Origin: Amyloporia xantha | Lineage: Eukaryota > Basidiomycota > Agaricomycetes > Polyporales > Adustoporiaceae | Direction of reading: 5' to 3' | Length of the DNA: 64,000 nt | Assembly (NCBI GenBank): GCA_036971615.1 | Contig: JAYKKR010000020.1 | Coordinates: 124,001 to 188,000 of the forward strand | The notes under the pieces: generated by a model | Told to the model about the DNA's origin: nothing | Databases searched by the model: none | Seen by the model: the letters and a program-made list of their open reading frames with translations, nothing else | Position numbers and translations under genes: made by a program | Part shown: positions 20,121 to 32,268 of the stretch, piece by piece | Position numbering within the stretch: position 1 is the stretch's first letter | Layout of the letters: the number at the start of each line of letters is the position of its first letter

Positions 20121-21194
20121 GGCGGGGCAGGGCGAGGGCGGGGCGGGCGGTGCTTACGTGCATGGGCTGCGATTGGTGTGCACAGGGGTTAGGGGCAGAA
20201 AGCCGTAAGTCTTTTTCCACTTTTCGCAGGGTGCAGGTGCAGCATTTCCCCTCCCCGCGGGGACACTCTCGGGGGGTTGTGCGCAGTGTCACAGCTCTTG
20301 ATGGAGTCCTACTTCTCAAAGTGTGGGTGCAGCACTTCCCCTCCCTGGGGGGACACTCTCGCGATGTTACGACTCTCAACGGGGTCCTACTACTCACGGC
20401 ATGTCTTGCTGTAAGTCCTCCCGTCGAGATTTGTGACGCCGTGTGCGTGGTCATCCCTGTCGATGCCGCTTTTCGTTCGATATGTGGCCGGCCAGAAGTC
20501 TCTTCATCCGGTACGCTCTGGAGTGTTCATCGGCAACTAAATATATTGAATCTTCCCCTTCGAATCTACTTGCATACTACATCTGACCTGTACCCGATAG
20601 AAGCCCGTGCTCTCAACTCCGCCTCTCGCCGTCCCATCGGTCACGCAGCAGTCAGTACCGTCCAGATTGTCAATGCACCCCGCAGCGCACACACCCCACC
20701 TATCGCGAAGCGGGCAGACGACGCAGCACCATCCGGCACTCGACGACTCGGCCATCACAGCACATGCAGCGCAGCGGCCCCCTATCGCATTCTATCCCCG
20801 CTCTGTCTGTCCGCCTCTGCACTCACAATGGATGAAGGAGCATCCCCATGCAGCAGTCTCATCCACGCACAGTGACCGCGTGTCTGCGCTCTACTCGAAC
20901 TCGAGTGTCCCAGGTGCTCACTGACATGTAGCCCTACAGACCATCCTTGAGCTCTGCTAACCCGCCGTGTACGACGCTGCCAGCCGGATGTTATGCGCCT
21001 GACGTCCGTCACCTCTCGCGTTTATACTACGAAGGCTACGTTCCTGATGGCGAACTCGAGTTGCTGCACCGCACGGCATCCCGTTCTGTACGCTAGCAGA
21101 GAGCAGTCGGGTCGTCGAGACTAACAGTTACATACTCGAGCCACCATGTACAATGCAGGCTGCGCGTTGTCTTTCGGCTACACTCAGATCATGC
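20121..21194. other. Sequence downstream of the striatin relic
   Basis: No striatin WD40 repeats here. A motif of about 30 bases containing TGCAGCA(T/C)TTCCCCTCCC and GGGGACACTCTCG occurs twice, at about 20240 and 20328. The open frame at 20607-20924 is Ser/Pro/His-rich with no recognised motif. Confidence 0.4.
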
Positions 21195-21347
21195 GTGTGA
21201 CTCAGTTAACTAGGTGTGACTCAGTTAACTAGGTGTGACTCAGTTAACTAGGTGTGACTCAGTTTATGTGACTCAGTTAACTAGGTGTGACCCAGTTAAC
21301 TAGGTGTGACTAGTTAACTAGGTGAGTTAACTGCCTCAGTTAACTGG
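21195..21347. repeat. Short tandem repeat with TGACTCA and GTTAACTAG
   Basis: About eight degenerate units of 18-20 bp built on GTGACTCAGTTAACTAGGT. Five units keep a perfect TGACTCA (the palindromic Gcn4/AP-1 type bZIP site); later units decay to TGACCCA or lose it. It lies about 290 bp left of the retroelement. Confidence 0.9.
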
Positions 21348-21637: not shown

Positions 21638-22014
21638 AGGTGCGTAGTCCTTAATGCAATTAGCGCCGGGGTACCGTGACACAGTCACGTGACATGGGGC
21701 GTCTAATATACGCGCTCGATGATGTCATGTTCTAGGCCCGCCTGGGCCATGACGTCAGGGGTGGCACATGTGATTGCATGAATCACATGCACCGGCTCGG
21801 GTACTTCGGTGACTTCTCGGAACGGCGGAACGCCGACGGAATGACGTCACTCCTATTTATAGGGGACAGGTCTAGACAATGACATCATAGTCCGAGTCCA
21901 CCCGATAGCGGGATAATGCTATTGGCTCGGTCTCGTCGGCAACTATTAATAAGTTATTATGCCGTCGTACCACTTTTCAAAGTCGTACGATGCGAGGTAA
22001 TTCTCGCTTGACTA

Positions 22015-22086
22015 AGCAAGGGCCTGATGAGTCTATAAAAGACGAAATGGGTCGGTGTTGGATCCCCAGCACCTCATTGCCCAGCT
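22015..22086 (+). ncRNA. Hammerhead ribozyme, PLE-1 left copy
   Basis: Type I hammerhead. Core CTGATGA (22024-22030), stem II GTC/GAC around a TATAAAA loop, GAAA (22044-22047). Stem III is ATGGG with CTCAT, capped by a hairpin GGTGTTGG-ATCC-CCAGCACC; then AT-T with predicted cleavage after 22078. Stem I is GCCC (22079-22082) with GGGC, plus GCT with AGC beyond a small internal loop. All invariant core bases are present. Pairing was deduced by hand. Confidence 0.88.
22034..22040 (+). promoter_or_regulatory. TATA-like box in the stem II loop of the ribozyme
   Basis: TATAAAA is the best TATA box in the pseudo-LTR, 180 bp ahead of the ATG. A start site about 30 bp downstream would fall in the stem III hairpin of the same ribozyme. 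Inference only; no transcript data. Confidence 0.4.
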
Positions 22087-22220
22087 CTGTCCCCCGCTCC
22101 TCAGCAACTTCCTTCGATAAGGTCGCCTTCGGCTCCCATATCTCAGTCGTCGCTTCGTCGCTCCACCACCTAACCTTACCTCAAACGACGCACCCCATTG
22201 AGTTCTTCATTTTCTTTACA

Positions 22221-25200
22221 ATGTCTTCTTTCAACTTCTCCGTTGGAACTCCAGCCTTCCTCCGCGCCGTCTCTCCTCTCGCAGATTCACTTCGGATCAG
22301 CAACGTGTCGGCGCAGTCAGGCGACGAGAGTCACACCTCGTTGCTATACGGCCGTCACACTGCGATTCTCGCGGCCAACACGGTCGATGAGGTCGTTGCC
22401 ATGGTGTCTTCGGACTACCGTGACGTTCTCCGGGGCCCTCTTCTTGAGATCGCCAAAACCGTCAGCAAGTGCTGTTCGGCCCGGGCCACTCTCGCAAAGT
22501 GGGAGCACCACAAAAGTGCCGGAACGTACCCTCAGCACCTCCGCATCGCTAAGCCGGACCTTCAGCTCACGAAGGAGTTCTCCGACTCAGTAACCGCCCT
22601 CGCGCACAAAAAGAAAGTCTCAGACGATTGGGATAAGTATTTGAGTGGCACGCTGGAGGAGTCGATCAAGGCGAAGAAAGACGACGTTGCTCATCAGGAG
22701 GGTCTTTTGAATCGAGATGTGTTGTTCCAGCAGCTCGACAATATCGTTAAGCATCGGTGGCAGGTGGTAAAGACACAGGCCATGGTACCGAAGTTCGTTG
22801 CTTCGCCCAACGACCCGAACGAGCAGGTCGTCGACGGTTGGGAGGTTTCGCCGGCATCAGTTGCCGCCTACCACGCCTGCCGCGAAGACTTGTCGGTCTA
22901 CGTCTTGCGCATCCAGCGGCTCGTCGAGAGTCGTGATGCCGCGTCCCGCCTCAAGCAGGACGCCAAGAAGGAGATCGCTGCTGCCGCCGACGTCGAGATG
23001 GTCGACGTTTCCGAGTCTGCCTCCGCTGGTCCGGGCCCATCTACGATGGCCTTGATCAACAAAGCAGTCGACGCGCGGTATCACAAGCTCGCGGACAAGC
23101 TCTCGAAAGAGTATGCGGCTAAGCAGAAGGTAAGTCCAGGCCCATCGCTTGGCACCAAAGCTTACACGCTAATGTCGTACCTAGAAGAATGGCGGGTCGA
23201 CTCAGTCCAAGGGCAAAGGGAAGGAACTCCCTCGTCCCCCGGAGGTAAAAAGGTACATCCCTCCTCCGACTCGTTCGCGCCAAAGAAGCGCAACTCAGTC
23301 ATCCCTAAGCAGAAAGGCCAAGGCAATTCGCGCGGCGGGTGGGGTAAAGGCTCATCAGAAGAAGGAGCAGGCGAAGGAAAAGAAGGGGAAGGGAGGAAAG
23401 AAGGGTGGCAAGTAAGCGCGTACTATAACGATAAAACATCGTTTACGCCGTTGTCAGAGGGTGAGGCTCTCTCGAGGACTTTTTCTTATCAGTATGGTCG
23501 TCCGTCTTCTCTCCCGGACTGGTTGCTTTCGGTCCCGCATCCTGTAGCAGTACGTTGTGTACTTTTGAATACGCCAGTAGATGTTCTGCGCGCATCCCAA
23601 TTCAAAAGTTATGTTCATCTGTCTACCGGTGTCTCTGTCCCCCGTGAGATACAATATCAGTTGAGTATAGGCATGAAGTTCATGTTCTATGCGCCGTACA
23701 ATCGTGAACTCATACGCGATGCATGGCGTGAATTTAATCGACGCATTCACTGGCGTCTCTTCTTTCACTTGACCGATCAAAATCAGTGGTTTGATCCTGA
23801 GTACGAGGTAAAATCTGAGCGTAAAGCGAAGAGAATGCCCGCACTACCGCACTATATCGAACAAGGACTTCTCAAAGGCAGGCTGTTCGTTAACAAAACG
23901 CTAGCCAATATGCCAGAGTCGCTGGAGTCGGAAGACCATCTTAAGCCGCTCGGTCCGAATCTCCGCCAAGTTCGAGATTTCTTGAAGGCTCACGACTACA
24001 TTGTGACGCCTACAGACAAGAATCTGGGAATCGCGGTGTCAGAGCGCACCTGGATCATCTCTCAAACCTTGGAGGTGCTGTCAAATGTTAAGGATTATCG
24101 ACCCCTTAACAGATTAGCAGCTAACGAAATCCTTCGAGTAAAATGTGCAGAAATGAATGAGATAGCAGACTTAACTGAGGTCTACTTAACTCTTGAGGAG
24201 CCGTTTAACCTGTCAGACTTTTTGCGGTCTAAGATAACACCGGCAGGTTCGAGTAACCATCATATACCTGTATTCTACGGTATACCTAAAATTCACAAAT
24301 ATCCTGTGAAGTTTAGGCCGATAATTCCATGTCACTCGGCCATTCAAAATCCTGCGGCTAAATTCGTTTCTAAAAAACTCAAACCGATTGTCGAATCGGC
24401 GCCAACCATTTTACATGGTACCAAACACTTGGCGATAAAATTGAGTCAACTGAAGTTGCGTCGAGATCGTCGCTGGTACATTGTTACCGGCGACGTCGTC
24501 GCGTTCTACCCAAACATTCCTTTGGACAAATGTCTAAATATTGTTAACGAGCTTTATCTCGAACACTATTGGAGTGCGGATCCGGAACGCGGCGGTGCGA
24601 ATCATGCTAAGAAGGTCCAAGAAATCTTCAAACGTTGTCTCGAGGTTGGCAACACTCGGTTGCTTACACAGTTTCAAGGTGTTTTATATGAACAATTGCG
24701 CGGCCTAGCTATGGGCGTAGCGGACTCACCGGATCTAGCAAATCTGTATGGTTGGTGGTTCGAGCGCAAATGTGATATTATGAATAACGATCTAGTTCCT
24801 TTCTATGGTCGTTACATCGACGATTGTCTCGCGATTGTCTATGCCTCTAGTGAACAAGAGGCATTGGACATTATCTCGTACAATATCCACTTCGATGGCT
24901 GTGTTATTGAGTGGAATGTGTCGCATCGGTCTCAGGTGTTCCTGGACATGACGCTCTACAAAGATGATTTTGATAGATTGCAGCACATGCCATACCGCAA
25001 AGCGGCATCCCACCAAGAAAGGATTCCATGGATATCTCATCACCCACTCGACGTAAAGAGGGGTACCTTTATAGGGGAGATGTCACGGCTTGCCACCCTG
25101 AGTAGTACTAAGCATACTTACTTACAGGCCATGCAAGGCTTGGTCGCCTTGTACATGTGCAGGGGGTATCCCGAACAACTCGTGACTCATTGGCTGAAGA

Positions 25201-25781
25201 ATAACATCTCAGAACGATGGGAAAAACGGCTCAGTGTACCGCGTGACGGCGGTGAGCCTAAGGCGTCGCAAGGCGTTCTTGTACTGAAGTCTGAGTTCAA
25301 CGAGGCATGGAACTACTTTCAAGCGAAAGAGCTTGGAGACGTCATCACAGGATATTGGCGTGAGTGGTGCACACGCGCCGCCACAGGGGACTGGAGTCCA
25401 GAATACCCGTACGAAGACGACATGTCGGGCAGAGCCTCATTCGACGCGGCGTTGAAATTCCGCAGTTGGCATGTAGGCAATGAAACCCAATTTGTTGACA
25501 TTCGTAAGACTGATATCCTAGACCGTCGCTGGTTAGTGTCTCGTAAAAGAACACGAAACCTAGCCGACATCGCAAGTGTCTGGAAAAAGATGATTCTCGA
25601 AAAGCTGGACGAGCGCGTCGTCAACGAACAATCTGCGGAAAGTTCGTCAATGGCGGCGCCTAGTGTTCAAGGCGGCTCGCAGTTGCCCTTCACTCAGCCA
25701 GAGGAAGTCTCTGGGGTTTCTGATGAAGATACCATTTATCTGCACCGCCACTCGCCGGACCCATTTGGGTGGGCGCACTAG
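22221..25781 (+). CDS. PLE-1 Gag-like/reverse transcriptase fusion (or short basic protein when spliced)
   Basis: ATG at 22221 is chosen because it aligns with the PLE-2 start (FLRAVSPLADS versus FLRALSPLVDS); the frame is open upstream only through the ribozyme and leader. Unspliced it encodes 1186 residues. Residues 1-303 are a helical Gag-like region shared with PLE-2 (VAMVSSDYRDVLR, WEHHKSAGTYPQH). RT motifs: GIPKIHKYPVKFRPII from about 687, GDVVAFYPNIP about 757, RGLAMGVADSPDLANLYG, and catalytic YIDD at 865-868 (24813-24824); then FLDMTLYKD, HHPLDVKRGTFIGEMSR and RGYPEQL in the thumb. No GIY-YIG or zinc-finger endonuclease follows. A 55-nt GT-AG intron (23130-23184) lies between Gag-like and RT parts. 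Spliced, the product is join(22221-23129, 23185-23415), 379 residues with a Lys-rich tail ending KKGGK and TAA. Confidence 0.88.
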   Translation: MSSFNFSVGTPAFLRAVSPLADSLRISNVSAQSGDESHTSLLYGRHTAILAANTVDEVVAMVSSDYRDVLRGPLLEIAKTVSKCCSARATLAKWEHHKSAGTYPQHLRIAKPDLQLTKEFSDSVTALAHKKKVSDDWDKYLSGTLEESIKAKKDDVAHQEGLLNRDVLFQQLDNIVKHRWQVVKTQAMVPKFVASPNDPNEQVVDGWEVSPASVAAYHACREDLSVYVLRIQRLVESRDAASRLKQDAKKEIAAAADVEMVDVSESASAGPGPSTMALINKAVDARYHKLADKLSKEYAAKQKVSPGPSLGTKAYTLMSYLEEWRVDSVQGQREGTPSSPGGKKVHPSSDSFAPKKRNSVIPKQKGQGNSRGGWGKGSSEEGAGEGKEGEGRKEGWQVSAYYNDKTSFTPLSEGEALSRTFSYQYGRPSSLPDWLLSVPHPVAVRCVLLNTPVDVLRASQFKSYVHLSTGVSVPREIQYQLSIGMKFMFYAPYNRELIRDAWREFNRRIHWRLFFHLTDQNQWFDPEYEVKSERKAKRMPALPHYIEQGLLKGRLFVNKTLANMPESLESEDHLKPLGPNLRQVRDFLKAHDYIVTPTDKNLGIAVSERTWIISQTLEVLSNVKDYRPLNRLAANEILRVKCAEMNEIADLTEVYLTLEEPFNLSDFLRSKITPAGSSNHHIPVFYGIPKIHKYPVKFRPIIPCHSAIQNPAAKFVSKKLKPIVESAPTILHGTKHLAIKLSQLKLRRDRRWYIVTGDVVAFYPNIPLDKCLNIVNELYLEHYWSADPERGGANHAKKVQEIFKRCLEVGNTRLLTQFQGVLYEQLRGLAMGVADSPDLANLYGWWFERKCDIMNNDLVPFYGRYIDDCLAIVYASSEQEALDIISYNIHFDGCVIEWNVSHRSQVFLDMTLYKDDFDRLQHMPYRKAASHQERIPWISHHPLDVKRGTFIGEMSRLATLSSTKHTYLQAMQGLVALYMCRGYPEQLVTHWLKNNISERWEKRLSVPRDGGEPKASQGVLVLKSEFNEAWNYFQAKELGDVITGYWREWCTRAATGDWSPEYPYEDDMSGRASFDAALKFRSWHVGNETQFVDIRKTDILDRRWLVSRKRTRNLADIASVWKKMILEKLDERVVNEQSAESSSMAAPSVQGGSQLPFTQPEEVSGVSDEDTIYLHRHSPDPFGWAH
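23130..23184 (+). other. Dual-coding 55-nt intron of PLE-1
   Basis: Starts GTAAGT, has a CTAAT branch-like motif and ends CCTAG. Retained, it reads VSPGPSLGTKAYTLMSYL and keeps the RT frame open. Removed, the frame shifts by one (55 is not a multiple of three) into the basic tail. Same position and length as in PLE-2. Confidence 0.8.
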
Positions 25782-26000
25782 TAGTTGTTAGTAAGGTTGG
25801 GTGGTGAAAACTGTAGCCCCCAATTCTGAAGGCAGCGGAAATGCGTCTGCTAGCGAGTCAGCCAGCATGTGGCTTTTATTTGTTATACTCTGGAGACTAT
25901 TCTGTTCGCCCGTTGGCAGTCTCCTTTACATTCTCAGAAGTGTGGAAGGCGCATAACTGGGCCTGTGCCTCTCAGGGGAGGTGCCACTTCGGTGGAGTTG

Positions 26001-26124
26001 CCTCTGATGCATGGGGGGAGGGTACCACGACTACTCTTATGGATGAACTGACCCTGCGCGGCAGTCCTGCGACCGTTGTATAACTGATAATTTCATGTGC
26101 TGTAACTGGCAGCCCGTGATTCGA
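26001..26124 (+). other. Conserved 3' untranslated block of PLE-1
   Basis: Much more similar to PLE-2 (31341-31464) than surrounding untranslated sequence; a run of 27 bases starting ACGACTACTC is identical in both. No shared reading frame explains it. Candidate RNA recognition structure for the RT. Confidence 0.6.
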
Positions 26125-26277
26125 ATGGTAGTTCCTCACGAGCTCTGATTCAGTGTCTTTCAGCTGTTTCGGAAGGGGGGAGATCAGCAACTCTTTCGCT
26201 ACCTCACTTGCAATATCTTGTAAGTACTACGGTTTCTGTGTACACCACAGACGGTACTAACCGAGGCTTTTTACCTA

Positions 26278-26308
26278 ATTTAACCTAACCTAAAACCTAA
26301 CCTAACCG
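26278..26308 (+). repeat. Telomere-like CCTAA units in the PLE-1 3' region
   Basis: Tract of AACCTAACCTAAAACCTAAC type; the G-rich strand would be TTAGG on -. The same tract occurs in PLE-2 near 31600-31630. The unit is mostly five bases, not the TTAGGG common in fungi. Confidence 0.7.
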
Positions 26309-26370
26309 TATGTACATTCCTTAATCGGAAATACAATATTGCTGACTAATTGATGTCATATCAAAAATAG

Positions 26371-26952
26371 TAACCTAACCGAACCTAACCTAACGGACCT
26401 AACGGTCCGGGCCAGGTGCGTAGTCCTTAATGCAATTAGCGCCGGGGTACCGTGACACAGTCACGTGACATGGGGCGTCTAATATACGCGCTCGATGATG
26501 TCATGTTCTAGGCCCGCCTGGGCCATGACGTCAGGGGTGGCACATGTGATTGCATGAATCACATGCACCGGCTCGGGTACTTCGGTGACTTCTCGGAACG
26601 GCGGAACGCCGACGGAATGACGTCACTCCTATTTATAGGGGACAGGTCTAGACAATGACATCATAGTCCGAGTCCACCCGATAGCGGGATAATGCTATTG
26701 GCTCGGTCTCGTCGGCAACTATTAATAAGTTATTATGCCGTCGTACCACTTTTCAAAGTCGTACGATGCGAGGTAATTCTCGCTTGACTAAGCAAGGGCC
26801 TGATGAGTCTATAAAAGACGAAATGGGTCGGTGTTGGATCCCCAGCACCTCATTGCCCAGCTCTGTCCCCCGCTCCTCAGCAACTTCCTTCGATAAGGTC
26901 GCCTTCGGCTCCCATATCTCAGTCGTCGCTTCGTCGCTCCACCACCTAACCT
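26371..26952 (+). repeat. PLE-1 right pseudo-LTR with telomere-like leader
   Basis: Opens with about 43 bases of CCTAAC-type units and the hairpin GGACC-TAAC-GGTCC (26395-26408), missing from the left copy. Then matches 21638-22176. Ends CCACCTAACCT, where it runs into the CCTAA units that begin PLE-2. Confidence 0.92.
26791..26862 (+). ncRNA. Hammerhead ribozyme, PLE-1 right copy
   Basis: Identical to the left copy; core CTGATGA at 26800-26806, predicted cleavage after 26854. In a transcript started in the left pseudo-LTR, this copy would be complete. Confidence 0.88.
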
Positions 26953-27535
26953 AACCTAAACCTAACCGAAGGTAACCTAACGGACCTAACGGTCCGGGCG
27001 GGGGCAATTTGTCCTTAATGCTGATAAGCGCCAGGGTAATGATGTCATACTGACGTCATAGACATGGAGCCTTATCTAAGCGCCAGAGTGACGTCATAGA
27101 CGCCACGTGGTGGTAACGTGACTGATCAATCACATGCTCCGGCTTCGGCTACTTCGTGGAAACCTCGGCCCGGCGGAACTCCGTTCCGATGGTTCTTTGA
27201 TGCGTGATGCATCGGAAGGTTTGTCATGGTTTTTACTAAAAGTGCGATGCCATCGCAAATGAGCGGGATCCGCCATTGGCTCGTTCTATTCTCGGATGAT
27301 CACAAGATATTAAGCCGTCGTACCACTCTCAAAGTCGTACGACGCAGGGTATTTATTTGCTTACCAAGCTAAGGACCTGAAGAGGCATATAAGCCGAAAT
27401 AGGTTTGGTGTTGGATCCCCAGCACCCTATTGTCCTAGCTCTTCGGCCAGCCTTCACTCCGCACCTCCCTCGACTAAACTCGCTCCGCTCGTATAGTCTC
27501 AGTCAGCGCGTCGTTCGGCCCACACCACCTAACCT
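26952..27535 (+). repeat. PLE-2 left pseudo-LTR
   Basis: Starts TAACCTAAACCTAACC, then the hairpin GGACC-TAAC-GGTCC (26982-26995). Two perfect TGACGTCA sites lie at 27051-27058 and 27089-27096, and the hammerhead at 27367-27440. The leader overlaps the last telomere-like unit of PLE-1. Confidence 0.92.
27367..27440 (+). ncRNA. Hammerhead ribozyme, PLE-2 left copy
   Basis: Core CTGAAGA (27377-27383), stem II GGC/GCC around ATATAA, GAAA (27396-27399). Stem III is ATAGG with CCTAT capped by the same GGTGTTGG hairpin; predicted cleavage after T27431. Stem I is GTCC-TAGCT with AGCTA-A-GGAC (one bulged A). Every stem differs in sequence from PLE-1 while keeping pairing. Confidence 0.9.
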
Positions 27536-27578
27536 CACCCATACGCGTTGCACCCCCCATTGAGTTTCATACTTCACT

Positions 27579-30500
27579 ATGACTTACCAGCCTACTCAAA
27601 CAAGCTTCCTCCGTGCGCTTTCTCCGCTCGTCGACTCTGTCCGAGCGACGGGTGCTACTGCTGAGTCTGAAGAGACTTTGCGGTACGCTCGTCACCTCGC
27701 ACTTCAGTCGGCCGCTACGGTCGATGAAGTTATCGCAATGGTGTCTTCGGACTACCGCGATGTACTCCGGGATCCTCTTTTGGGGATCGCAAAGACAACT
27801 TCCAAGTTGCTCTCTGCCCGGTCCACTTTGCAGAAGTGGGAGCACCATAAGAGTGCCGGTACCTACCCCCAGCACATCCGCTCGTCGCGCCCCGATCTCC
27901 AACTCACAAAGGAGTACGCTGACAGCGCGTCCACTCTCGAGCACAAAACGAAGGTCTCAGGTCTCTGGGATGTTTTCATGAGTGGGACGTTGGATGAGTC
28001 CATCCGGGCTAAGAAGGATGACGTCAGCTGGAATGAGGGTTTGTTAGCTCAGGATCGCCTTTTCACTGAGTTAGACACTATCGTCACGCATCGGTGGCAG
28101 TCAGTCAAAGTGACCGCCCAGATACCGACGTTCGGTTCAGCCCCGAACGCGCCCGGCGAACAGATCGTCACGGGATGGGAGGAAAGTCCGGCCGCCAAAG
28201 CCATCTACCACCACACCCGCGAAGATCTTTCGGTCTTCATCCTCCGCATTCGACAACTCGTCGAGCAGAGGGACCTTTCCGCTCGTCTCAAAAACGACGC
28301 AAAGAAGGAGATCGCCGCTTCCGCGGACATCGAGATGCACGACGCAACCGCTACTGGTAATGCGGTTGCAGGGCCCGGTCCATCGACTATGTCGATGATC
28401 GACAAGGCAGTCTCGGCGCGGATGAAAAAGCTCGAGGATACGTTCAAGAAGAACGCGCGTGCTCAGCAGCAGGTAAGTCCAGGTCCTACACTTGGCTCTA
28501 AAGCTTACACACTTATGTCTTACCTAGAAGAATGGCGGCAAGACTCAGTCCTCGGGCAAGGGCAAAGGCCCTCAGCGTCCCCCGGAAGTGAGACAGTACG
28601 TTCCACCTCCCACTCGTACGCGGCAACGTTCCGCAACGCAGAGTTCTTTCACCAGGAAGGCCAAGGCTATCCAGGCGGCAGGAGGGGTAAAGAAGTTTCA
28701 GAAGAAACGCGACGCAGAGGAAAAGAAGGGGAGGAAAGGAGGGAAGAAAGGTGGCAAGTAGGTCGGGACGTTAATACGTCGTTTACGCCCTTGTCACGGC
28801 AGGAAGCTCTGTCTCGGACTTTTACGTATCAGTATGGTCGTCCTTCGTCTCTCCCGGACTGGTTGCTTTGTCTACCGCATCCCGTAGCAGTTGATTGTGT
28901 ACTTTTAAATACGCCAGTTGATGTATTGAGCGCAGCCCGCTTTAAATCATATGTCCATCTGTCTACCGGAGTTTCCGTCCCCCGTGAGATTCAATTTCAA
29001 CTAAGTATTGGCATGAAATATATGTTTTACACACCCATGAACCCTGACCTCATCAGGGCGGCTTGGCGTGACTTCAATCGTCGTATGCATTGGCGTCTGA
29101 AGTTTCAGTTGGAAGATATGAATACCTGGTATGATCCTGAGTATGAGTTTGAAGCGTCAACTAAAGCGACGCGAAATCCCGTACTACCGCACTATATTGA
29201 GCTTGGCCTGCATAAGGGTAGGATGTTCGTTAACAAAACGTTATCCCGTATGCCTGAGCAGCCAGAGACGGACGACACGCTTAAGCCGCTCGGTCCTAAT
29301 CTCCGTCAAGTTCAAGAGTTCTTGCGCGACCACGATTATATCGTGACTCCAACAGACAAGAACCTGGGCATTGCGGTGTCAGAGCGCACCTGGATCTTAT
29401 CACAAACTCTTGAGGTGCTACACAACCGAAAGGACTATCGAGCCTTGACGTTTCGTATGGCACATAAAATCCTCGAAGAGAAGTGCTCAGAGATGAATGC
29501 GATTGTTGAACTTGCGGAAGTTTACCTCGCGCTTGAGGAACCAGCGAACCTCCCCGGATATCTGCGGTCTAAGATAACGGTTCCGGGAACGAATCACCAT
29601 GTACCTATGTTTTATGGTATACCTAAAATCCACAAATACCCTGTGAAATTTAGGCCTATAATTCCATGTCATTCGGCCATTCAAAACCCCGCTGCTAAGT
29701 TCGTCTCTAAAAAACTCAAACCGATTATATTGTCGGCGCCAACCATCTTGCATGGTACTAAACACTTGGCGTTAAAATTGAGTCAGTTGAAACTGCGTCG
29801 AGATCGTCGCTGGTACATTGTTACTGGTGACGTCGTCGCGTTCTATCCCAACATTCCTCTGGACTCTTGTCTGGAAATTGTGAACCAGATGTACTTGGAT
29901 CATTACTGGAGTGCGGATCCGGAACGTGGCGGAGCCGATCACGCTAAAGTCGTAATGGACTTATTTAAGCGCTGTCTCTACGTTGGAAACACACAACTGT
30001 TAACACAATTCCAAGGTGTATATTACCAACAACTTCGTGGCCTAGCGATGGGCGTTGCGGACTCTCCGGATCTTGCTAACCTGTATGGTTGGGAGTTCGA
30101 GCGTCGTTGTGGTATCTTGGATAACGATTTAGTAGCGTTTTACGGTCGTTATATCGATGATTGCCTGGCAATAGTGTACGCTTCTAGTGAACAAGAAGCG
30201 CTTTCAACTATTGCTAATGCTGTAAAATTCGATGGTTGTACCATTGAGTGGAATGTATCGCATAGGTCTCAGCCGTTCCTGGACATGTTGCTCTATAAAG
30301 ATGAGTTCGATAGACTGCAGCACATGCCATACCGCAAGATACAATCCCACCAAGAACGTATTCCATGGATATCTCACCACCCGCTTGATGTCAAGCGTGG
30401 TACCTTCATTGGAGAGATGTCGCGGCTTGCCACCCTGAGTAGCACTAAGCATGCTTACTTACAGGCCATGCAGAGCTTGGTCGCTCTGTACTTGTGCAGG

Positions 30501-31124
30501 GGGTACCCCGAACAACTCGTACTTCACTGGTTGAAGAATAACATCACTGAACGATGGGAGAAAAGGCTCAGTGTACCGCCGGTGGGCGGGGAGCCAAAAG
30601 CGTCGCAAGGCGTTCTAGTCCTGAAATCAGAGTTTAACGAGGCATGGAATTACTTTCAAGCGAAAGAGCTTGGAGACGTCATCACTGGATATTGGCGTGA
30701 ATGGCTCGTTAGAGCCGACACGGGCGACTTCAATTTGGAGTATCCAGCGCCGACCACCAGCGAGAGGTGGGGTGTAAACCCTGCTAGCAAGTTCTTTACT
30801 GGGCTTGCCACTGAAACTCCTTCGGGAATAAGTGCCGTTGTCGATCTGCGTAAAACCGATATCTTTGGTCGTCGATGGTTAGTGTCTCGTAAAAGAACAC
30901 GAAACCTACTCGACATCACCAGTGTTTGGAAAAAGATGATTCTCGAAAAGCTGGACGAGCGTGTTGTGCGAGATGGTGCGGAAGCAGCATCTAGTAGCGC
31001 GGCACCTAGTGTTCTTACCTTTGATGATGTCGTTGTCGGCGCAGGGCAAGCCCCTGAGGTTGACTCTGATAACGAAATAATTCTTCATAGGCACTCGCCG
31101 GATCCTTTCGGGTGGGCGCATTAG
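27579..31124 (+). CDS. PLE-2 Gag-like/reverse transcriptase fusion (or short basic protein when spliced)
   Basis: ATG at 27579; unspliced product 1181 residues, co-linear with the PLE-1 protein. RT boxes: GIPKIHKYPVKFRPII, GDVVAFYPNIP, RGLAMGVADSPDLANLYG and YIDD (residues 858-861, 30150-30161). The polypeptide ends HRHSPDPFGWAH, as in PLE-1. No GIY-YIG endonuclease is visible. The 55-nt intron is 28473-28527; spliced join(27579-28472, 28528-28761) gives 375 residues ending KKGGK and TAG. After the intron the spliced frame is clearly more similar between the elements than the fusion frame (about 55 of 77 tail residues match by eye). No stop or frameshift was seen, so the protein may be functional. 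Confidence 0.88.
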   Translation: MTYQPTQTSFLRALSPLVDSVRATGATAESEETLRYARHLALQSAATVDEVIAMVSSDYRDVLRDPLLGIAKTTSKLLSARSTLQKWEHHKSAGTYPQHIRSSRPDLQLTKEYADSASTLEHKTKVSGLWDVFMSGTLDESIRAKKDDVSWNEGLLAQDRLFTELDTIVTHRWQSVKVTAQIPTFGSAPNAPGEQIVTGWEESPAAKAIYHHTREDLSVFILRIRQLVEQRDLSARLKNDAKKEIAASADIEMHDATATGNAVAGPGPSTMSMIDKAVSARMKKLEDTFKKNARAQQQVSPGPTLGSKAYTLMSYLEEWRQDSVLGQGQRPSASPGSETVRSTSHSYAATFRNAEFFHQEGQGYPGGRRGKEVSEETRRRGKEGEERREERWQVGRDVNTSFTPLSRQEALSRTFTYQYGRPSSLPDWLLCLPHPVAVDCVLLNTPVDVLSAARFKSYVHLSTGVSVPREIQFQLSIGMKYMFYTPMNPDLIRAAWRDFNRRMHWRLKFQLEDMNTWYDPEYEFEASTKATRNPVLPHYIELGLHKGRMFVNKTLSRMPEQPETDDTLKPLGPNLRQVQEFLRDHDYIVTPTDKNLGIAVSERTWILSQTLEVLHNRKDYRALTFRMAHKILEEKCSEMNAIVELAEVYLALEEPANLPGYLRSKITVPGTNHHVPMFYGIPKIHKYPVKFRPIIPCHSAIQNPAAKFVSKKLKPIILSAPTILHGTKHLALKLSQLKLRRDRRWYIVTGDVVAFYPNIPLDSCLEIVNQMYLDHYWSADPERGGADHAKVVMDLFKRCLYVGNTQLLTQFQGVYYQQLRGLAMGVADSPDLANLYGWEFERRCGILDNDLVAFYGRYIDDCLAIVYASSEQEALSTIANAVKFDGCTIEWNVSHRSQPFLDMLLYKDEFDRLQHMPYRKIQSHQERIPWISHHPLDVKRGTFIGEMSRLATLSSTKHAYLQAMQSLVALYLCRGYPEQLVLHWLKNNITERWEKRLSVPPVGGEPKASQGVLVLKSEFNEAWNYFQAKELGDVITGYWREWLVRADTGDFNLEYPAPTTSERWGVNPASKFFTGLATETPSGISAVVDLRKTDIFGRRWLVSRKRTRNLLDITSVWKKMILEKLDERVVRDGAEAASSSAAPSVLTFDDVVVGAGQAPEVDSDNEIILHRHSPDPFGWAH
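28473..28527 (+). other. Dual-coding 55-nt intron of PLE-2
   Basis: GTAAGT...CCTAG; translated in the fusion frame as VSPGPTLGSKAYTLMSYL. Compared with PLE-1, five codons differ only at synonymous third positions and two swap Ser and Thr; the other codons are identical. Confidence 0.8.
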
Positions 31125-31340
31125 TACTGCGAAAGTACGGCCTTGGGTGAAAACTGTAGCCCTCGGTTGGAAATCAAACGAAAGTGTGTCTGCTAGCGAG
31201 TCAGCCAGTGCATGGCTTTACATTGTTGTATGGGGGAGACTATTCGGTTTCACCCGTTGGCAGTCTCCTTTACATTCTCACCAGTGCGGAAGGCGCATAG
31301 GTGGGCCTTAGCCTCTCGTTGACGGTGCCGCTTGTGGATG

Positions 31341-31464
31341 TCTCTGATGCTCGGGGGGAGGGTACTACGACTACTCTTATGGATGAACTGACCCTGTGTG
31401 GCCGTCCTGCGACCTCTATACAACTGTGTATTTCATGTGCTGCAACTGGCAGCCCGCGATTCGA
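31341..31464 (+). other. Conserved 3' untranslated block of PLE-2
   Basis: Counterpart of 26001-26124. Includes a CGGGGGGAGGG G-run and GGATGAACTGACCCTG. Confidence 0.6.
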
Positions 31465-31684
31465 GATGGACAAGCCCTCACTATTGCCTTCAGGAGATGG
31501 TGAATGCAGCAACTCTTTCGCTACCCTACTTGCAATATCTTGTAAGTACCACGGTTTCTGTGTGCATAACAGACGGTATTAACCGAGGTGTTTTACCTAA
31601 TTTAACCTAACCAGAACCTAACCTAACCGTGCGTACATTCCTTAACCGGAAATACATCTATCCGAGATTAATTTCTTGTAATAG

Positions 31685-32268
31685 TAACCTAAACCTAACC
31701 GAAGGTAACCTAACGGACCTAACGGTCCGGGCGGGGGCAATTTGTCCTTAATGCTGATAAGCGCCAGGGTAATGATGTCATACTGACGTCATAGACATGG
31801 AGCCTTATCTAAGCGCCAGAGTGACGTCATAGACGCCACGTGGTGGTAACGTGACTGATCAATCACATGCTCCGGCTCCGGCTACTTCGGGGAAACCTCG
31901 GCCCGGCGGAACTCCGTTCCGATGGTTCTTTGATGCGTGATGCATCGGAAGGTTTGTCATGGTTTTTACTAAAAGTGCGATGCCATCGCAAATGAGCGGG
32001 ATCCGCCATTGGCTCGTTCTATTCTCGGATGATCACAAGATATTAAGCCGTCGTACCACTCTCAAAGTCGTATGACGCAGGGTATTTATTTGCTTACCAA
32101 GCTAAGGACCTGAAGAGGCATATAAGCCGAAATAGGTTTGGTGTTGGATCCCCAGCACCCTATTGTCCTAGCTCTTCGGCCAGCCTTCACTCCGCACCTC
32201 CCTCGACTAAACTCGCTCCGCTCGTATAGTCTCAGTCAGCGCGTCGTTCGGCCCACACCACCTAACCT
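31685..32268 (+). repeat. PLE-2 right pseudo-LTR
   Basis: Copy of 26952-27535 with about three differences (CGGCTCCGG for CGGCTTCGG, CTTCGGGG for CTTCGTGG, TATGACG for TACGACG). The hairpin GGACC-TAAC-GGTCC is at 31715-31728. Ends CCACCTAACCT. Confidence 0.92.
32100..32173 (+). ncRNA. Hammerhead ribozyme, PLE-2 right copy
   Basis: Same sequence as 27367-27440; core CTGAAGA at 32110-32116, predicted cleavage after 32164, 104 nt before the end of the element. Confidence 0.88.

Follow-up and report, generated by a model that had tools for sequence, protein, structure and literature searches.

Among described systems, the closest in its working to the elements analysed here is BARE1, a Copia-type LTR retrotransposon of barley in which, in the available text of its description (PMC3735527), splicing of a small alternative intron of 104 nt shifts the reading frame and brings in a stop before pol, three residues past Gag; the spliced RNA gives the first protein only and the full frame is present on the unspliced RNA. 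The portion of the same source that deals with copia of Drosophila (PMC3735527) likewise describes a spliced subgenomic RNA for the first protein, made by taking out some 2950 nt, which is almost the whole of pol. The two elements described below, W1 and W2, resemble both in that removal of an intron ends the frame before the reverse transcriptase (RT), as read in the sequence of ten out of ten genomic copies. Their intron measures only 55 nt, is constrained as protein and is followed by a conserved basic tail of 76 or 77 residues, all of which sets them apart from BARE1, a member of another retroelement class (LTR). BARE1 and copia being LTR elements, the likeness is one of working, and membership in their families is not claimed. 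Exitrons are retained coding introns of cellular genes. Like these, the W1/W2 intron bears splice signals and would code for protein if retained; unlike these, it is not divisible by three in length, and the two frames downstream of it are both preserved.

In element type, the comparison is with endonuclease-deficient, telomere-associated Penelope-like elements, with which W1 and W2 share a TERT-like RT and flanking pLTRs, the orientation with the 5' side toward the chromosome end, 5' truncations at telomeric repeats and telomere-like repeats near the 3' end (PMC3846280 and PMC5537684, available sections of both). The same sections do not mention a coding intron that separates ORF1 from RT and can be switched, as proposed for W1 and W2. 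Penelope-like elements were reported at the chromosome ends of Agaricus bisporus (PMC7473861, available text). To account for intron retention in Penelope-like elements, Arkhipova et al. 2013 (PMC3846280, available text) favoured an antisense template and did not exclude an unspliced sense transcript. No switch of this kind in Penelope-like elements was named in the literature searched, a body outside of which lay the defining 2007 paper and most subscription journals.

The window, i.e. the whole stretch of 64,000 nucleotides that was analysed, comprises positions 124001-188000 of contig C13 in a genome of 46.8 Mb on 60 contigs; coordinates are given in the window, and all features lie on the forward strand. 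Two Penelope-like elements of the telomere type are arranged in tandem head-to-tail: W1 at 21638-26954 and W2, a second, diverged element, at 26952-32264. The terminal repeats (pLTRs) of W1 at 21638-22178 and 26414-26954 agree at 540 of 541 positions, those of W2 at 26952-27531 and 31685-32264 at 577 of 580; W1 and W2 represent two diverged families, each with a nearly identical pLTR pair. A candidate hammerhead-ribozyme-like motif (Rfam RF00008) in the W1 pLTR at 22010-22053, with the same match at 26786-26829, scored 21.5 bits, below the gathering score of 48.5 (E 1.1). An unscored stretch of W2 at about 27370-27400 resembles by eye the small hammerhead-like cores of W1. Directly upstream of W1, at 21177-21330, lies a short tandem array with a 19-nt unit (TGTGACTCAGTTAACTAGG).

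The RT region of W1 (23490-25781, residues 424-1186 of the fusion described below plus the stop) matched bacterial RT models (NCBIfam Drt3a, E 4.6e-6), and a fold search with the predicted structure of the fusion returned telomerase as the top seven PDB matches (best E 5.5e-8), the model itself being modest (mean pLDDT 64.8, with residues 297-428, covering intron and linker, below 50). A Pfam scan of the fusion gave no family at E <= 1, GIY-YIG endonuclease included, and the same scan also missed the RT; likewise, no RT family was found in Pfam scans of the window and of the relatives P0001, P0003, P0013 and P0070. For many relatives, the protein database carries precomputed Pfam accessions. 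A sequence search of the PDB with the family alignment yielded nothing clear (Drt3a at E 0.029). All 23 protein matches in the same genome have their 5' side toward the nearer contig end, and 20 of the 22 measured lie less than 80 kb from it, the two exceptions being W1 and W2 at about 146-155 kb inside the contig. Arrays of (CCTAA)n with at least five units were present at nine of the 12 contig ends fetched. At six ends element sequence is directly joined to such an array; the junction lies within ORF1 on C7, within the RT frame on C11 and within the pLTR on C12, C22, C27 and C10. Short CCTAA runs occur near element 3' ends. On the basis of RT fold, location and orientation at contig ends and telomeric junctions, the element is filed with the endonuclease-deficient telomere-associated Penelope-like elements. 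Fungal elements of this group are called Coprina. The telomere-like repeat at these contig ends is of five bases, CCTAA/TTAGG; TTAGGG is the telomere repeat in most fungi.

In W1, exon 1 of ORF1 (22221-23129, 303 codons) is common to both products. The initial annotation had called ORF1 Gag-like, a label that found no support: exon 1 gave a model of long helices (mean pLDDT 89.9) and matched no Pfam family at E <= 1, and a fold search with the model found no PDB match at E <= 0.001. Exon 1 is followed by a 55-nt intron at 23130-23184 (VSPGPSLGTKAYTLMSYL) of the form GTAAGT...CTAAT...CCTAG, which is protein-coding if retained. Its CTAAT at 23169-23173 (CTTAT in W2) is branch-point-like and may serve as such, and an ATG in the RT frame at 23172-23174, with a counterpart at 28515 in W2 and in all ten introns, is removed by splicing. 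Downstream, positions 23185-23415 can be read in two frames. With the intron retained, this segment is the linker of an ORF1-RT fusion of 1186 residues that is open throughout (22221-25781). With the intron removed, the frame shifts into a Lys-rich tail of 77 codons, i.e. 76 residues and a TAA stop at 23413-23415, giving a product of 379 residues. The intron, the open fusion and the frame shift into the tail are thus present as originally annotated. A spliced RNA would encode no intact RT, since the tail frame stops at 23413 and the intron ATG is lost; the next ATG in the RT frame corresponds to residue 485, within the conserved N-terminal part of the RT. The same arrangement is found in W2 with its own intron: exon 1 (27579-28472, 298 codons), a 55-nt intron GTAAGT...CCTAG (28473-28527), a Lys-rich tail of 77 residues plus TAG in the spliced frame (28528-28761) and an open ORF1-RT fusion of 1181 residues plus stop in the retained frame (27579-31124). 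A second donor-like GTAAGY over the tail stop of W1 (23411-23417), which could rejoin the RT frame by way of a second intron, was set aside, as by eye W1 and W2 share no acceptor for it; the site (donor from 23412) reads GTAAGT in copies C10 and C12 and GTAGGT in W2.

A 461-base probe of the same genome identified 11 places, ten of which contain the intron (nine of W1 type and W2); the eleventh (C11:16851) starts 12 nt beyond the acceptor and is uninformative on the intron. Intron length, splice sites, the open retained frame and the intact spliced tail with its stop at the same place were kept in all ten copies, even though copy C7 has a stop elsewhere in the fusion frame and copy C22 is broken into pieces. 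The initial annotation had proposed this comparison of copies together with codon-substitution tests, and had named stops within the intron or a degraded tail as observations against dual coding; in the ten copies the intron has no stop in its retained frame, the tail is conserved, and the dual coding it proposed is backed by the substitution patterns in both frames and by the relatives described below. None of the ten copies was intronless, and of 17 near-matches to the spliced junction in the genome none lay less than 8 kb from a copy, which argues that the RNA turned into DNA was unspliced, or antisense.

All relatives were assessed at the protein level. The fusion as query found 245 proteins (120 listed) and a query with the RT alone, which carries no bias towards fusions, 389 proteins (120 listed); among the latter 120 there were 78 full fusions, 18 with a partial ORF1 and 24 without an ORF1 match. 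Seven of these 24 span the site (P0102, P0114, P0119, P0128, P0130, P0132 and P0134), P0097 begins at its V-S, and the remaining ones start later or at contig limits. Mycena metata, Armillaria fumosa and Lentinula edodes, each a member of the Agaricales, are among the named relatives. Alignment-based scans of viral and genome contig collections returned 14 and 45 pattern matches and no relative's DNA. In 79 of the 96 listed relatives with ORF1, a donor-like tripeptide ([KRQ]V[SRGCH]) occurred no more than 80 residues past ORF1 (0.10 expected), some of these matches, e.g. one in P0070, possibly arising by chance, and KV[SR] in 59 of the 96 (0.012 expected); in 17 of the 96 the tripeptide was absent from the first 80 residues. 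On back-translation from the proteins, splice signals could be encoded within the retained peptide of some clades, ADFFLG stemming from CTGAC TTCTTC CTAG and ITNW from CTAAC. Taking all listed matches plus W1 and W2, 93 of 112 fusions carried the tripeptide and entered a hidden-frame test, in which the presumed spliced frame after the intron had the highest K/R content (0.252) and the lowest stop chance (0.017 vs 0.041 in ORF1 and 0.042 in RT). In P0013 and P0021 a Gly/Arg-rich stretch lies upstream of the donor-like site, and the basic part may precede the intron there.

The spliced ORF1 as query found six proteins. Four proteins annotated as ORF1-only, from Mycena metata, Gymnopilus junonius, Armillaria fumosa and Psilocybe cubensis, have 19-23 Lys/Arg within their last 60 residues, although such gene models may be predictions without transcripts. 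P0125, on a contig of 1283 nt, has the same appearance with no splicing and must therefore be cDNA or else lack the intron, and P0124 (250 aa) stops short of the tail. Five Lys-rich ends were compared with the hidden frames of the relatives: that of P0122 scored above shuffles (16.9 vs 13.3), that of P0123 barely so (15.4 vs 15.0), and those of P0121, P0125 and P0126 were not above shuffles.

The intron was analysed for selection in the retained frame. In the nine W1-type copies all seven variable columns fall on third positions of this frame, with P values of 1.6e-4 for all 55 sites, 1.5e-4 without the splice signals and 5.9e-5 for the centre (columns being treated as independent in all substitution tests, and the copies being related). 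With W2 added, ten of 12 variable columns are at retained third positions and the other two are Ser/Thr exchanges; in the eight copies other than C7 and W2, pN was 0.000 and pS 0.226. This pattern indicates that the intron is translated. It bears on the reading in which the intron is an ordinary constitutive one, spliced mRNA yielding the RT through reinitiation or internal entry and the openness of the intron being incidental. The splice signals are good, the layout GTAAGT...CTAAY...YAG occurs widely in this genome (898 matches vs 492 for the reversed control) and other fungi have proteins annotated as ORF1-only, as such an intron would lead one to expect; yet protein constraint on the retained frame is at odds with constant removal, and the first RT-frame ATG left after splicing, at residue 485, lies inside the conserved part of the RT. 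We regard constitutive splicing as very unlikely.

The overlap downstream of the intron showed the opposite preference. There, it is the spliced frame whose third positions hold most of the variable columns, 18 of 26 (P 7.7e-5, under the same treatment of columns), and pN/pS in this frame (0.146) resembles that of ORF1 (0.134), which argues that the tail is translated too. In the retained frame pN/pS was 2.55, no better than in the unused third frame (2.23), the linker being held open with its residues free to change. Between W1 and W2, 59 of 77 tail residues are identical vs 36 of 76 linker residues. At synonymous sites the overlap varied less than ORF1 (pS 0.124 vs 0.298), as expected from double use, though another nucleotide constraint could also explain it. 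When synonymous tail codons were redrawn, the retained frame stayed open with P 0.005-0.009 (three copies), an underestimate at least for copies of the W1 type, since the same simulation overpredicted stops in exon 1 of W1 (mean 16.1 vs 8 observed; W2 12.4 vs 11).

These patterns leave only a slender chance that the intron is never spliced, the fusion being the sole product and the Lys-rich frame a side effect of the linker being repetitive and rich in G/A. Fusions do prevail in the listed set, 78 of the 120 relatives being full fusions and 18 partial ones, but a side effect would hardly account for an overlap that conserves the spliced frame over the retained one, for a tail better shared between W1 and W2 than the linker, or for a tail stop at the same position in ten of ten copies. 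Judged from the alignments, neither permanent splicing nor its complete absence fits the intron and tail patterns together.

Two constrained overlapping frames are also a mark of programmed frameshifting, by which the tail frame could be reached on unspliced RNA with no splicing at all. However, a TAG directly precedes the first codon of the tail frame in all ten copies, and this frame has more stops inside the intron, so that a frameshift would need to hit the acceptor exactly, and the segment is bounded by consensus splice sites at invariant spacing; we consider frameshifting extremely improbable. It is just as hard to believe that no fusion is made and that the RT starts at the intron ATG (23172 in W1, 28515 in W2), splicing turning the RT off by removing it: the ATG is indeed in frame in ten of ten introns, but the seven variable columns of the nine copies, all synonymous, occupy positions 12-36 of the intron and so precede its ATG, which is at position 43; this favours read-through from ORF1, and most listed relatives are predicted as fusions.

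We consider it likely that a short, alternatively spliced intron acts as an on/off switch for the polymerase in this telomere-associated Penelope-like element. Both arrangements are intact, and the substitution patterns show protein-level constraint on the intron when read in the retained frame and on the tail when read in the spliced one. Points that weigh against the switch are the unconstrained residues of the linker, the 17 relatives lacking the tripeptide, the CTTAT of W2 and the Lys-rich ends that mostly did not rise above shuffles. Selection in both frames lends indirect support to both RNAs being made and translated, and we infer that the tail frame is reached by splicing and not by another device. 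The spliced RNA would give only ORF1 with its conserved basic C-terminal tail, which is probably nucleic-acid binding, and the unspliced RNA would be translated through the coding intron into the ORF1-RT fusion with a disordered linker. That retention sets the ratio of structural protein to polymerase, as the initial annotation proposed, is suggested by analogy to BARE1 and copia; on this reasoning the ORF1:RT ratio would be regulated, and the unspliced RNA would presumably be the template of retrotransposition.

For a large clade of mushroom Penelope-like elements the prospects are evenly balanced that the short coding intron is a polymerase on/off switch throughout, that the intron-containing RNA, as the only one to make RT, is also the template by cis-preference, so that the intron cannot be lost, and that the two frames, the coding intron and the splice switch form one old, jointly selected device. 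If the switch exists, the polymerase mRNA is the intron-retaining form, and the sense transcript gains a reason to be the template. The splice strategy of BARE1 and copia would then have been invented separately, in telomerase-related elements. If the switch holds for the clade, it would answer, for this clade, why Penelope-like elements keep introns despite moving via RNA.
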